Positions 1 to 3,927 of a DNA stretch of 27,313 bases are shown here, piece after piece (the first letter of the stretch is position 1; each line of letters opens with the position of its first letter). Made by a program: the position numbers and the translations under genes. The stretch is from a virus: positions 1 to 27,313 of the IMG/VR virus record IMGVR_UViG_3300025101_000141; one strand, given 5' to 3'. The notes beneath the pieces are model-generated. The model worked only from the letters and a program-made list of their open reading frames with translations, made no database searches and was not told where the DNA came from.

Positions 1-1416
1 CATTGCCAAATCATCATGACATCCATCCTCTGCTTCAAAGGAATTATTTTTTGAAATAAAAGTTGTAAGTTCTGATATGATATCTAAATCATTGAAAAGA
101 AGTTTATTCTCCTCAATCATAGTTTTTAGATTTAATGCTCCAACTTTTTTAACTGTCTTTGACATCTTAACGCCAAGTTGCGTTTTCTTACCAGAAAAAC
201 CTTGTCCTACAACTTGTCCTGCTCTACCTCTCATAGAACACATTAGAACATTTTGATATTCTAGATCATAATGAAGTAGTGATGCTACTTGATCTCCAAC
301 ATCATTAACTTCGCATAGAATATACGCACTATTATAATTTTTTGCTACTTCATATATGATGTTGGGAAATAACATCGGTTTAATGTCATTATTTCTATAT
401 TTTGCAACTATTTTATGTGGGAATGATGTAATATCTGCACATATAAAAGCTGAATAATCTTCTCCAACACCTCTAGCAACGTCAACTGTTATTATGTAAT
501 CATGATCTTTCTGAGGATCTTCATAAACGTCTAATCCAGCGTTTGATTTAAGTGGAGCATCATATATTAAAGATTTTAATTTGCTAGCAGCAATAAGTGT
601 GTCAATAGATCCTAAAAACTCACACTCAAACTCAATTTTGAACTGCTGTTCAGAAGTGTTTGCTATAGTTTGTTCTTTCCATGCCTCATCCCTACCTGGA
701 ACTTCGCTCCAGTGAACATCTGTTGGAATATATTCATTCTTACTTTTTTCTGCATCACTCCACATACGGTAGAAGTGGTTCATACCGTGAGGAGTGGATA
801 CGATAATTACCTTGGTGTTTTTACCAGAAGTAATAGTAGGATAAACAGAGGCAAAGAATGAGTCAGCAATGTGATTTGGGACAAACGCGAATTCGTCGAG
901 AAAGAGGATGTTAAATGACATACCTCGGACAGCACTTGCAGACGTAGAAGCTGCCAATATTTTACTGCCATTCTCTAACTCCAGTGATCCTTTATTCCAT
1001 GCAATAATACCCTGCTGCATCCACTTAGGCAAGTTTTCATATGCAGTTTGTAATCTACCTAAAAGTTCCCTAGCTGTTGCTGCTTTGTTAGCCAATATGC
1101 CGATATTAACGCTGTCATTAAAAACCGCGTAGTGCAGAAGATAAGAAACCACCGTAGTAGACTTTCCAGTCTGACGCGGCATTTTGCAGATGTTAAATCT
1201 ATTTTCATGGAAGTTATTAATTAACTTTTCCTGAAATCGATATGGTTTGAACGGAACAAGTCCTTCATCCAAACTAACAATCTTTACATACTTATTAGCA
1301 AAATAAACTGGATCCCGTTGGCACTGAACAAATTCAATGATTTGCTCTTCGGTGAACTCAATCGGGGTATTTGCTTTTTTTAGATTAGGATTGCCAAGAT
1401 ATACATTATCAGACAT
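1..1416 (-). CDS. 17: Terminase large subunit gp17 (C-terminus cut by window edge)
   Basis: This is the ATP-driven DNA-packaging motor and headful nuclease of T4-like phages, which docks on the portal of the prohead. The 472 codons in the window stay open to base 1. Seen: a Walker A loop MPRQTGKST at about residues 79-87, a Walker B ILFLDEFAF at 170-178, and a coupling motif IIVSTPHGMNHFY at 204-216. The RNase H-like nuclease acidic residues appear as VDVARGVGEDY (Asp312), CEVND (Glu369) and CHDDLAM (Asp468/469), matching T4 gp17 landmarks. T4 gp17 has 610 residues and cyanophage versions are somewhat shorter, so the missing part is probably only the distal C-terminus. The start ATG is 6 bases after the stop of the preceding gene, with no strong Shine-Dalgarno. 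An imperfect late motif AATAAATC lies 28 bases upstream inside that gene. Unlike T4, gp16 is not the immediate neighbour. Confidence 0.97.
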   Translation of the reverse strand, partial: MSDNVYLGNPNLKKANTPIEFTEEQIIEFVQCQRDPVYFANKYVKIVSLDEGLVPFKPYRFQEKLINNFHENRFNICKMPRQTGKSTTVVSYLLHYAVFNDSVNIGILANKAATARELLGRLQTAYENLPKWMQQGIIAWNKGSLELENGSKILAASTSASAVRGMSFNILFLDEFAFVPNHIADSFFASVYPTITSGKNTKVIIVSTPHGMNHFYRMWSDAEKSKNEYIPTDVHWSEVPGRDEAWKEQTIANTSEQQFKIEFECEFLGSIDTLIAASKLKSLIYDAPLKSNAGLDVYEDPQKDHDYIITVDVARGVGEDYSAFICADITSFPHKIVAKYRNNDIKPMLFPNIIYEVAKNYNSAYILCEVNDVGDQVASLLHYDLEYQNVLMCSMRGRAGQVVGQGFSGKKTQLGVKMSKTVKKVGALNLKTMIEENKLLFNDLDIISELTTFISKNNSFEAEDGCHDDLAM

Positions 1417-1422
1417 AAGTTA

Positions 1423-3135
1423 TCAACAGTTCCAGGCTCTTAATGATTTATTGATTCTGCTATCGGGATCGTTAGCAGTTTTCTTAGAGGTAAGTTTTTT
1501 CTTCATACCTTTCATTCTTGCACAGAATGATGCTCTTCTTTTGTTGCCAACTTTTTTTGAAGGTGCTTTGAGATCAGAACCTGGATTTTCTCTTTCATAG
1601 GACTTACGTCCTTTTTCATTAAGTCCACCCTCTTTATTTTTACCTGCCTTTCTTGTCCAAGCAGCAGTCTTTTCAATTAATGCCCCTTCGGTGTCCTCAA
1701 GGATTTCTCCTGATGCTGTTGTGTTAGTTGTAGTAACTTCATCAACTGTTCCGACTTCTCCTGTTCTTTCTTCAGTGACTTTGAGAATTGGTTGTCCTGG
1801 TTCATAGTCCGAGACTCTGAAAAACGTTAGTTTTGCGCCAGGATAAACTTTGTTAATTTGATCAATAACGTCGGATCTACTGGGAATACCAACTTTAGGG
1901 AAGAACATCTTAATCATAAATGTTCTGCCTCTAAAGACAAAATTTACATCAATGATGTTACCAATTTTAGCCGGAAGTCTTACTGCTTCTTCAACCGACT
2001 CTTTTCTAGTTTTTTTCTTTTTGACACAGTTTGGATATCTTTTTCCAAACATAGTCTTCATACCCTTTTTTTCATAACCAGGCCAGCACTTCTCATCGAG
2101 TGATGTCTCTTCTTTAGCGAGATCACCAAATCTTTCGCGATGCTTCCTTAGTTTCATAGATTGATCACGAAACTCTTTCTTGGATTCGTAACCACTCTTT
2201 TTTGATCCGTCTTTGATAGAGGAACCTCTACCAAGAGATTTACGTTCAGATGACTGTGACAGTTTTGTCTTGTCACCATATTGTGTTTTAAACTTTTCAG
2301 TAAGTTCGCCCCAGGTAAGTCCTTCAGACTTATTTCCCCAGTTTGCGGCACCTACTTTTCGACATTTGACTAGTGCTCCTGACGCATATGCACTAGGCCA
2401 AACACTATAACGAGATTTTACTTTATGGTAACAGGCATCTTTAGTTCCACTACCCTTACCTTTTTTATCCGAACCCTCTGATATACCTGCTTTTCTGAGT
2501 CTTTTTGCTTGACTCTTATGCATTTCAACTGCTTTGTCTAATTCTTTTGCGATACCCTTTACATTTTTAGGGTGATCTTTTCCTTCTTTCATTGATTTTT
2601 TCCGAGGGCTGTCGGTACTTACATATGTTGGTTTAGCAGCTCCAGTTTTTTGTGGTTGTCCTGGATCTGCTTTTCTTTTTCTTCTCTGTGCAGACTTCCT
2701 TTCGGCGTCTGTCATAGATGCTCTTTTTGCTGAAGACACACATTTAGGTGTTGACTTCTGTCCTGGTTGACGAGCACAGGGTTTACCGGATACGACTTGT
2801 ACCCATCCTGGTTTTCCTCCTTTTGAACGAGAACCCTTAAACCATTGACGAAGATCTCCGCCCTCATAAACTACTTCTTCACCCATACCCCCGCCAGCAC
2901 CACCATTACCGTTGCCACCGCCGCCGTTGCCACCATTACCATTACCAAGGCCGCTTCCATTTCCGTTGCCATTTCCGTTACCATTCCCATTTCCGTTACC
3001 ATTTTTATTGGTTTCAGATTCAGTGTCGGTGTCTTTTGCAAGCATACCTCTTCCACCCACATGGTATCCCATGGGAATCTTCTTACATTTTTTATCAGTG
3101 AAACAGTAATACTGTCCAGCAGGACACTTTTTCAT
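1423..3135 (-). CDS. Modular Cys/Lys-rich mosaic protein with Gly-Asn linker, function unknown
   Basis: A 570-residue basic protein without a recognised enzymatic fold. It looks like a string of short modules. Residues 1-35 hold three cysteines (KKCPAGQYYCFTDKKC). Residues 45-83 are an Asn-Gly/Gly linker. Residues 90-176 contain EGGDLRQWFKGS and GKPCARQPGQKSTPKC. Residues 234-270 contain ACYHKVKSRYSVWPSAY and ALVKCRKVGAANWG. Residues 349-377 contain KCWPGYEKKGMKTMFGK and PNCVKKK. Residues 386-452 are a small, less basic globular segment. Residues 491-570 end in SFCARMKGMKKKLTSKKT and INKSLRAWNC. From memory, several of these modules recur in cyanophage hypothetical or structural proteins, and the last resembles a domain of unknown function (DUF6321-like; the label is uncertain). 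A late promoter motif 21 bases upstream and its place between virion genes and gp17 suggest a late, perhaps virion-associated or DNA-binding product; that role is inference. Confidence 0.85.
   Translation of the reverse strand: MKKCPAGQYYCFTDKKCKKIPMGYHVGGRGMLAKDTDTESETNKNGNGNGNGNGNGNGNGSGLGNGNGGNGGGGNGNGGAGGGMGEEVVYEGGDLRQWFKGSRSKGGKPGWVQVVSGKPCARQPGQKSTPKCVSSAKRASMTDAERKSAQRRKRKADPGQPQKTGAAKPTYVSTDSPRKKSMKEGKDHPKNVKGIAKELDKAVEMHKSQAKRLRKAGISEGSDKKGKGSGTKDACYHKVKSRYSVWPSAYASGALVKCRKVGAANWGNKSEGLTWGELTEKFKTQYGDKTKLSQSSERKSLGRGSSIKDGSKKSGYESKKEFRDQSMKLRKHRERFGDLAKEETSLDEKCWPGYEKKGMKTMFGKRYPNCVKKKKTRKESVEEAVRLPAKIGNIIDVNFVFRGRTFMIKMFFPKVGIPSRSDVIDQINKVYPGAKLTFFRVSDYEPGQPILKVTEERTGEVGTVDEVTTTNTTASGEILEDTEGALIEKTAAWTRKAGKNKEGGLNEKGRKSYERENPGSDLKAPSKKVGNKRRASFCARMKGMKKKLTSKKTANDPDSRINKSLRAWNC
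2887..3003 (-). repeat. Hexanucleotide-like repeat encoding Asn-Gly linker
   Basis: Within the 570-residue gene, alternating AAY and GGN codons encode about ten Asn-Gly units followed by Gly-rich units (residues 45-83). The DNA is a degenerate 6-base tandem repeat, markedly more GC-rich than its surroundings. It is likely a flexible linker and prone to length change by slippage. Confidence 0.9.
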
Positions 3136-3156: not shown

Positions 3157-3164
3157 TATTTAGC
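3157..3164 (-). promoter_or_regulatory. Late promoter motif GCTAAATA
   Basis: Read on the minus strand this is GCTAAATA, one mismatch from the T4-like cyanophage late motif NATAAATA recognised by the gp55-type sigma factor. It lies 21 bases upstream of the ATG at 3135, in the largest intergenic gap of the window (92 bases). That supports a separate late transcript for the 570-residue gene and gp17. Confidence 0.55.
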
Positions 3165-3231
3165 AATCATTGAAGACTGAGCCAACTCTAGATCCTGCTG
3201 CTTCAGACATAAACTGTTTAAAACTTTTTAT
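3160..3231 (-). pseudogene. Vestigial short reading frame with lost start codon
   Basis: In the 92-base gap a reading frame gives KSFKQFMSEAAGSRVGSVF and ends NDC plus stop at 3160-3162. In the position of the start codon is ATA (3229-3231), overlapping the stop of the preceding gene. If this were ATG, the junction would be ATGA, the same coupling used between gp15 and gp16, and the peptide would begin MKSFKQFMSEA. From memory that resembles the conserved N-terminus of many cyanophage proteins. An internal ATG at 3208-3210 could give a 16-residue peptide, but no Shine-Dalgarno is visible. It is either a remnant or chance. Confidence 0.3.
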
Positions 3232-3593
3232 GCGTTCAATGCAGTGTAAATAACGCTAAAGGTTGTTAAACCAGCAGATGCGGGATATGCTAAAAGTCTT
3301 AACTGTCCAGCACTCAAGTCTGCTGAGAAAGTGGCTATACCTGAAGGTGCCTGAAGTGTTCCATACTCAGTAACATGTGCCGAGGTGCCATCATGCATTG
3401 CTCTGACAATGGTAGAGTTGAAATTACTAGATTGAGTCACTTGTACATTAAACTCAACCGACTGATATTTTGGTGCCGAAAGAGATACAAGCGCAGTCTC
3501 ACTAGTAGTGGCAGTTGTAGTCACACCTGACTGAACAATACCACCAACCATATCTAAGTTAGTTTTTGTTAATGAACCTACGATGTATGGCAT
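3228..3593 (-). CDS. Small beta-rich virion protein with HDGT/EYG module
   Basis: A 121-residue protein of predicted beta character, without signal peptide or membrane segment. Residues 42-118 form one copy of a module with landmarks MHDGTSAHVTEYG (66-78) and a run ending LLAYPASAGLTTFSV (100-114). Three further copies lie inside the giant protein at 20764-27313, where the landmarks read VHNGSIAEVLNYG, IHDGTDAQLLEYG and VNDDSRTFITEYG. This indicates a virion component, plausibly a tail-fibre or baseplate decoration made of a single domain. Its ATG is one base after the stop of the upstream gene (TAAAATG), so translation is probably coupled. The exact function is unknown. Confidence 0.85.
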   Translation of the reverse strand: MPYIVGSLTKTNLDMVGGIVQSGVTTTATTSETALVSLSAPKYQSVEFNVQVTQSSNFNSTIVRAMHDGTSAHVTEYGTLQAPSGIATFSADLSAGQLRLLAYPASAGLTTFSVIYTALNA

Positions 3594-3594
3594 T

Positions 3595-3927
3595 TTACGT
3601 TGCTGTCTCTAGGATACTTAAAATACACTTAAGTGTGCTATTTGCACTAGCAGTAACTTTTACTGCATCACTTGTTTCTAAAACCAATTTTCCACTCAAA
3701 GGAACAAAAGCATCATTAATAGGAACATTAGCGTCCTTAATAATTTCAGTGTCAGTTCCTGATCTAGCGTGCTTCATCGTAACGGTGGCATCTGAAGAAC
3801 CAACGTTTGCTACGTGTGCATATAGAAGGATGGCAGTATAACCTGTGGGCGCAGTGTACATTGTCTGCTCATCACTTGTGAGTTCTAACGTAACTGTTTG
3901 GAATCTATTGAGTGCTAATTGTGCCAT
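3595..3927 (-). CDS. Small beta-rich structural protein, function unknown
   Basis: A 110-residue protein with alternating hydrophobic/Thr-Ser segments typical of a beta-sandwich. It begins MAQLALNRFQTVTLELTSD and contains TAILLYAHVANVGSSDATVTM. It resembles small conserved virion proteins of marine T4-like phages that sit next to fibre-like genes (recollection, not a search). The ATG lies one base after the stop of the 1067-residue gene (TAAGATG), and the next gene starts one base after its stop. The three genes therefore form a tightly coupled unit, and the product may cap or accompany the large fibre-like protein. It does not contain the HDGT/EYG landmark of its downstream neighbour. Confidence 0.8.
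   Translation of the reverse strand: MAQLALNRFQTVTLELTSDEQTMYTAPTGYTAILLYAHVANVGSSDATVTMKHARSGTDTEIIKDANVPINDAFVPLSGKLVLETSDAVKVTASANSTLKCILSILETAT

Follow-up and report, generated by a model that had tools for sequence, protein, structure and literature searches.

The window, by which we mean the whole stretch of 27,313 nucleotides that was analysed, is a 27-kb IMG/VR virus contig from a T4-like marine cyanophage, for whose terminase and neighbours Bellamy, SynMITS9220M01, S-SCSM1 and S-SM2 are the closest. An open reading frame encoding 570 residues was found on the minus strand exactly as a sequence-only reading of the same DNA had called it; it sits between gp17 on one side and two small genes and a fibre gene on the other (Table 1), and its placement before gp17 by that reading is correct, as gp17 starts at 1416. 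It is not a chance frame, as 488 phage records, most of them from phages of Synechococcus and Prochlorococcus, contain relatives, as do 80 IMG/VR loci retained for the analysis, and its C-terminus matches DUF6321 (PF19846; 80.5 bits against a gathering cut-off of 28.5, residues 498-568). DUF6321 is the only Pfam match of the window protein; PHROGs cover the remainder solely with families of unknown function, the NCBIfam search gave no match, and the PDB sequence search returned low-complexity Gly/Asn matches only. The late promoter proposed earlier is plausible, as 21 of the 22 relatives inspected have ATAAATA 26-36 nt 5' of the start; the window itself carries CTAAATA there, and the full core is absent 5' of its gene.

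Table 1. Features of the locus and of the encoded protein (residues numbered in the 570-residue protein; a slash marks a predicted cut)
Feature	Position	Strand	Basis
Large terminase gp17; only the 5' part, as the contig ends within the gene	1..1416	(-)	PHROG "terminase large subunit"
Putative polyprotein gene, 570 aa	1423..3135	(-)	T4-GC 119 / PHROG 727 / 3477 relatives; C-terminal DUF6321
M6 = DUF6321, residues 489-570; two invariant Cys, net +18	1426..1671	(-)	Pfam, HMM, alignment
Acidic disordered spacer, residues 456-488; candidate cuts 455, 466, 480 and LIE/K (488/489)	1672..1770	(-)	
M5, residues 384-455; bbab globule (pLDDT 89-96) with a free paralogue in relatives that bears a capsid-targeting sequence (CTS)	1771..1986	(-)	
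Predicted cut VEE/A (383/384)	1984..1995	(-)	junction motif
M4, residues 349-374; KCWPGYEKKGMK...NCVKK beta hairpin	2014..2091	(-)	HMM, AlphaFold2, alignment
Predicted cut LDE/K (348/349)	2089..2100	(-)	junction motif
M3b, residues 281-342; KFKTQYGD..., largely low confidence	2110..2295	(-)	HMM, AlphaFold2
Predicted cut LTE/K (280/281)	2293..2304	(-)	junction motif
M3, residues 229-271; ACYHKVKSRYSVWPSAYASGALVKCRK	2323..2451	(-)	HMM, AlphaFold2
Helical M2b, residues 185-220; KNVKGIAKELDKAVEMHKSQAKRLRKAG, ends in predicted cut ISE/G (220/221)	2476..2583	(-)	HMM, AlphaFold2
Predicted cut MKE/G (184/185)	2581..2592	(-)	junction motif
M2, residues 93-175; DLRxWF, DUF5872-related; predicted fragment 92-184 net +18	2611..2859	(-)	HMM, AlphaFold2
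Asn-Gly linker, residues 37-91; disordered (pLDDT < 50), ends in predicted cut VYE/GG (91/92)	2863..3027	(-)	
M1, residues 1-36; CPxGQYYC, three invariant Cys, four short strands, pLDDT 85-90	3028..3135	(-)	HMM, AlphaFold2, alignment
Late-promoter-like CTAAATA upstream of the putative polyprotein gene	3157..3163	(-)	sequence motif
Relic: KSFKQFMSE (capsid-targeting-like), then AAGSRVGSVFNDC-stop	3202..3228	(-)	no in-frame ATG, GTG, TTG
121-aa neighbour without known function, next upstream of the putative polyprotein gene	3228..3593	(-)	ORF list, PHROG search
110-aa neighbour, PHROG 1276	3595..3927	(-)	similar by eye to S-SCSM1_27, an annotated virion protein
Fibre gene neighbour	3929..7132		matches tail-fibre PHROGs

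Profile HMMs of the modules were built from 80 relatives and then used to map architectures. Ten modules are distinguished, namely M1, M2, M2b, M3, M3b, M4, Z, DUF192, M5 and M6 (DUF6321), with the signatures CPxGQYYC in M1, DLRxWF in M2, ACYHKV..WPSAYASGA..CRK in M3, CWxGYE..NCV in M4 and C-x-H..C-P-x-H in Z. Over the 80 relatives and the window protein there are 37 architectures, some of them truncated by contig ends, and the modules are shuffled among the relatives by insertion, loss, duplication and transposition; the window protein reads M1-M2-M2b-M3-M3b-M4-M5-M6. Each piece of the Cys-containing mosaic that had been claimed from the sequence proved to be a conserved module that is ordered in AlphaFold2. 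Moreover, the cysteines that had been paired from the sequence, C4/C11/C17 (M1), C120/C132 (M2), C235/C258 (M3), C350/C370 (M4) and C538/C570 (M6), stand in columns that are Cys in all distinct rows or in all but a few gapped ones: 40/40 for each of the three in M1, 64/66 for both in M2, 37/40 and 40/40 in M3, 34/34 for both in M4 and 64/64 for both in M6. These cysteines may be either disulfide partners or metal ligands.

In the AlphaFold2 model of the window protein, run with 64 sequences, M1, M2, M3, M4, M5 and M6 are mostly ordered units, and the pLDDT falls below 50 in residues 37-93, 161-189, 219-231, 270-272, 288-315, 337-344, 377-389 and 458-503. The Asn-Gly linker that the sequence-only reading had described is there, at about residues 37-91, and so is its central globular segment, which is the Cys-free module M5 and is modelled as bbab with a pLDDT of 89-96 over residues 390-450. 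The check that this reading had proposed, for disorder throughout and no conserved cysteine geometry, thus came out against disorder, with the modules ordered and their cysteines conserved.

A whole-model Foldseek search against the PDB gave nothing with E below 0.9. When the whole model and M5 alone were compared with known folds by VIA-align, the best matches, at Z 5-6, were ribosomal LX/L18a, T7 Gp2 and YkzG. The bbab arrangement of M5 recurs in T7 Gp2, RNA polymerase epsilon (YkzG) and ribosomal LX at best Z 5.0-5.8, with an rmsd of about 2.1-2.4 over 49-55 residues and 6-10% identity; as Z stays below 8, this may be just a common arrangement from which no function follows, and a function for M5 from its fold was accordingly rejected. 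M2 has no Pfam match, remaining under the gathering score of DUF5872 (PF19197), and Foldseek aligns a DUF5872 phage protein with it at 50% identity. M6 is DUF6321, M2 is DUF5872-related and DUF192 is a module in many relatives, whereas the Pfam entries bear names for domains or families of unknown function and the fused layout separated by cut sites is absent from their names. Inside the chain DUF192 lies between M2 and M3, in L006, L018, L019, L022 and about 30 other loci, and Pfam confirms it in L006 and S-SM2_109. Another module that is absent from the window protein is Z, of 23 residues (C-x-H..C-P-x-H..C), found in L006 and about 40 other relatives; all five of its C/H positions are invariant in 32 distinct rows, and by its sequence it looks like a tiny metal-binding knuckle.

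The junctions between the modules read hydrophobic-x-Glu almost everywhere, for example MLDE/KCW, KPMSE/AVRIP, LHTE/GAAWT, VSEE/GLRDWF and IEE/GKKDACY. The pattern [LIVM]xE is present in 281 of the 335 distinct junction windows, against 127 ± 8 in shuffles; when the windows were reduced to those less than 50% identical, it is present in 99 out of 115, against 46.3 ± 4.9 expected, and none of 1000 shuffles reaches 99. The offset of -2 stands far above every other offset, the next best reaching 65 of these 115 windows. Inside M2, M3, M2b and M3b the pattern does not occur at all. The main exceptions are one conserved LNE inside DUF6321 and several sites inside DUF192, so that folding must protect them if the cleavage reading holds. 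At the junctions P3 (L/I/V/M) uses 14 codons, the Glu is written as both GAA and GAG in a ratio of about 2:1 and P2 is variable; the use of so many codons for P3, and of both for Glu, therefore points to a constraint on the protein and not on a DNA word.

In the window protein the predicted sites follow residues 91, 184, 220, 280, 348, 383 and 488, with 455, 466 and 480 as further candidates, and they are mostly within or beside the disordered linkers of the model. The predicted products would be 1-91 (M1 with the linker, net charge +1), 92-184 (M2, +18), 185-220 (M2b, +5), 221-280 (M3, +6), 281-348 (M3b, +7), 349-383 (M4, +8), 384-455 (M5, +5) and 489-570 (DUF6321, +18), and the spacer pieces between M5 and DUF6321 are acidic. 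All but the first of these products are clearly basic, and five of the eight contain conserved cysteines. In S-SCSM1_29 the predicted sites are VSE/G (E63), MTE/G (E198), IEE/S (E364) and VSE/G (E436).

The junction pattern resembles the motif of the T4 prohead protease gp21, which is L/I-x-E (PMC9026906); P3 at the junctions is often V or M, and the P3 class used here is thus widened from the L/I of T4 to L/I/V/M. At the cleavage site of gp23, T4 has FLTE/AEIG, and the matching place reads FLAE/APTN in S-SCSM1 and MIAE/QPTN in S-SM2. Peptidase_S77 (gp21) is present in each of the seven fused-protein records tested (Bellamy, S-SM2, S-SCSM1, S-SM1, Syn9, P-SSM2 and S-B43), and T4 has the protease and no DUF6321. 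The gp21-gp23 region is not included in the 27 kb of the window contig, so that a protease is attributed to this phage from its relatives.

Several modules are also found as separate genes of 47-86 aa, and Peptidase_S77 is absent from all seven phages with such single-module genes (HTVC115P, HTVC035P, P-SCSP1i, Pra-JY27, CRP-7, CRP-207 and P-SCSP2). DUF6321 stands alone in HTVC115P (83 aa), HTVC035P (84), Pra-JY27 (81), P-SCSP1i (84), where it adjoins the major capsid gene, and P-SCSP2 (85), and M3 stands alone in CRP-7 (47 aa) and CRP-207 (61). In CRP-7, DUF6321-like, M3 and M2-like genes lie in a row before the terminase, which is the place of the 570-residue chain in the window, while in P-SCSP2 genes like M3 (recognised by eye), M2 and DUF6321 lie between the scaffold and major capsid genes. 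The link of M2 to the free genes is weak by HMM (E 0.048 to P-SCSP2) and depends in part on CRP-7 gp63, which matches P-SCSP2 and scores 27.3 bits for DUF5872, just below the cut-off of 27.5. Thus what protease-less phages make as single genes is, in the protease-bearing group, a chain with cut-site motifs at its seams. In P-SCSP2, a T7-like cyanophage, the interval between scaffold and major capsid genes holds a run of five tiny basic genes (L111:2088-3066), of which at least one is DUF6321-like and others are M3- and M2-like.

The genes that flank the chain often begin with MK[STN]FKQF[LMV]xE/, like the capsid-targeting N-termini (CTS) of T4, where IPII and IPIII have MKTYQEFIAE/A and IPI has MKTFKEF. 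For T4 IPIII, positions 4 and 7 have been assigned to targeting and positions 8 and 10 to processing (PMC9026906), and all four are kept in the cyanophage N-termini. Three kinds of flanking gene carry them: one of 41-51 aa with another basic Cys module (CSNPKGFSQKAHCAGRKKR), one of about 144 aa which, beyond the cut, repeats the N-terminal sequence of mature gp23 (QPTNxVGNGGYT..VAGFD), and one of about 105 aa that is a free relative of M5 (HMM E down to 7.6e-7). In the loci of the chain, the strict CTS pattern is found in 22 ORFs on the coding-oriented strand and in 0 on the opposite strand. A CTS gene lies within 1.5 kb upstream in 13 of 60 loci and downstream in 14 of 66, so the association is common and not universal. 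The window protein carries no CTS of its own and begins MKKCPAGQYYC. Just upstream of its gene stands the KSFKQFMSE relic, which is missing in the close relatives L005 and L021.

Copies of the gp23 N-terminus after the CTS Glu (QPTNxVGNGGYT..GGQTVAGFD) were seen in small proteins, namely S-SM2_108 (L083:6377-6805) and in upstream genes of L009, L013, L030, L039, L051 and L066, and a similar stretch occurs in S-SCSM1_97, an annotated virion protein; judging from these sequences, such proteins are possible mimics of the capsid N-arm. At annotated starts of S-SCSM1 the strict pattern is found only in NMNAT and the M5-like neighbour, and most virion proteins of this phage are therefore not CTS-tagged. 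For NMNAT, MK[SN][FLY]xxFLxE/[AGS] is present in 47/47 IMG/VR copies with the start available (L114-L161; S-SCSM1_91, L087:40819-42048). NMNAT was found in S-SCSM1 virions by authors who could not tell it from carry-over, and a T4-type CTS would explain its presence in cyanophage virions.

The evidence for virion association is taken from published annotation and proteomics. S-SCSM1_29, which matches residues 2-570 of the window protein, carries the annotation "virion protein"; the authors of that record examined CsCl-purified particles by mass spectrometry and detected 45 proteins of the virion. This supports the head-associated cargo suggested by the sequence-only reading. The scaffold is also on that list, and the proteomics as described has the same outcome for an intact or a cut polyprotein. 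In S-SM2, the homologue S-SM2_109 (T4-GC 119) has the note "similar to S-SM1 protein", which is common to gp13, gp14, gp15, gp18, gp19, gp20, gp21, gp23 and gp3 of this phage and is not given to gp16, gp17 or uvsY; presumably the note marks the virion set of S-SM1. Two further annotated virion proteins, S-SCSM1_89 (L087:38357-39328) and S-SCSM1_92 (L087:42061-43623), are basic and contain numerous hydrophobic-x-Glu sites; one of the two shares a segment of SPQE.ALQKRK type with inserts in the polyproteins of L021 and L044; from their sequences, both may be further polyproteins.

Considering the modules, their shuffling, the junction motif, the free genes in protease-less phages and the CTS-like N-termini of the neighbours, all of which were obtained by computation, the 570-residue protein is probably a prohead polyprotein of T4-like cyanophages, which would be cut in trans by a gp21-type protease into basic mini-proteins retained in the head. 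The chain would be expressed late and enter the core of the assembling prohead, where the protease would cut it after the hydrophobic-x-Glu sites between the modules, and we strongly infer that the seams are where cleavage takes place. The window protein would thereby give about eight products with the acidic spacer (456-488) trimmed away, and by analogy with the T4 internal proteins, the basic Cys mini-proteins would most likely remain inside the head in association with the packaged DNA, along with which they may enter the host. The sequence-only reading is supported in what it saw of a modular, Cys-conserved and head-associated protein, and it missed the protease-type seams, the free-gene counterparts and the CTS on the flanking genes. 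A more speculative extension, which we regard as possible though doubtful, is that the capsid protease serves as a general release mechanism for swappable injected mini-proteins, with modules gained by way of their flanking hydrophobic-x-Glu and products, including M5 with its Gp2-like fold, acting early in the host.

Parts of this scheme are already known, namely the cutting of head proteins by gp21 and the CTS-borne cargo in T4, and protease cutting in phiKZ and SPN3US. The gp21-cut proteins of T4 (gp22, gp67, gp68, Alt and IPI-III) likewise have sites of L/I-x-E type and belong to the late head gene region; the T4 core and internal proteins yield small basic products inside the head, and the CTS consensus of T4 is common to the cyanophage flanking genes. 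However, each internal protein of T4 comes from a gene of its own, and IPI, IPII and IPIII all carry a CTS, whereas the cyanophage has one chain of several exchangeable modules with sites between them, the chain being without CTS. In phiKZ (gp175) and SPN3US (gp245), many head proteins are cut after x-Glu by a gp21 homologue, but in the passages of PMC5694885 consulted this is mostly propeptide removal, with no string of interchangeable small modules that are free elsewhere. The polyvalent proteins of phages and conjugative elements (PMC5512222) are also mosaic multi-domain chains with proteolytic release of domains; they differ in their embedded peptidases and biochemically diverse effector domains, while the cyanophage chain has tiny basic Cys modules and, as proposed, a protease in trans. 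Pfam detects no embedded peptidase or effector, its only matches being DUF6321 here and DUF192 in the relatives.

The alternative that deserves most attention, though we hold it to be unlikely, is an uncut multi-domain head protein whose modules act on one chain, for instance as a basic DNA-condensing tether or a capsid lining, and whose hydrophobic-x-Glu linkers are mere flexible acidic spacers. The order M2-M3-M4-M5-M6 is fairly conserved, acidic linkers make Glu common and virion association is silent on cleavage, all of which would suit such a chain; against it, the motif is commoner than in composition-matched shuffles and is tied to the offset of -2, the modules are separate genes in phages without the protease, and the same motif is used at the gp23 and CTS sites of the same phages. 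Somewhat less probable again is a component of the prohead core or scaffold like T4 gp22, gp67 or gp68, which would be cut by gp21 mainly for clearance and serve in core assembly or head size. The T4 core proteins are indeed cut by gp21 into several pieces that are mostly removed (PMC9026906), and genes like gp67 and gp68 are not annotated in the cyanophage head clusters examined. However, its annotation places the homologue among the virion proteins detected by mass spectrometry (a list that includes the scaffold too), the folded, Cys-conserved and exchangeable modules, DUF192 included, look like cargo, and the occurrence of free copies in other phages, some of them T7-like, hints that the products have a function of their own.

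The idea that module shuffling left the junction motif behind as a recombination seam in the DNA, with no meaning for a protease, seems very improbable. The modules clearly do shuffle and some linkers are alike (KKEEFELDEK and KKEEVEQIDEK), but the codon usage described above, with P2 variable, indicates that a property of the protein is kept. We give still less credit to an external virion protein, such as an adhesin with disulfide knots associated with fibre or baseplate, which the neighbouring fibre gene might suggest. The modules are strongly basic, the flanking genes bear CTS, and the free DUF6321, M3 and M2-like genes lie beside the scaffold and capsid genes (P-SCSP1i, P-SCSP2) or the terminase (CRP-7); moreover, P-SCSP1u, taken from its name as a relative of P-SCSP1i, has an icosahedral capsid without external decoration (PMC10575957).

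In the open-access literature searched, a chain of interchangeable mini-proteins with cut sites at the seams and free counterparts was not found described; DUF6321 is not named there, DUF5872 appears for an algal virus, and "cyanophage" together with "capsid targeting" led to a T4 review only. The relatives of this protein, which are present in hundreds of cyanophage records, have so far been labelled "hypothetical" or "structural protein". The polyprotein reading would turn such a hypothetical gene into about eight defined peptides, whose ends could be sought in existing virion proteomes. If it is true, the head cargo of cyanophages becomes predictable from sequence, and the polyprotein together with the CTS suggests how these phages may load other cargo, such as NMNAT.
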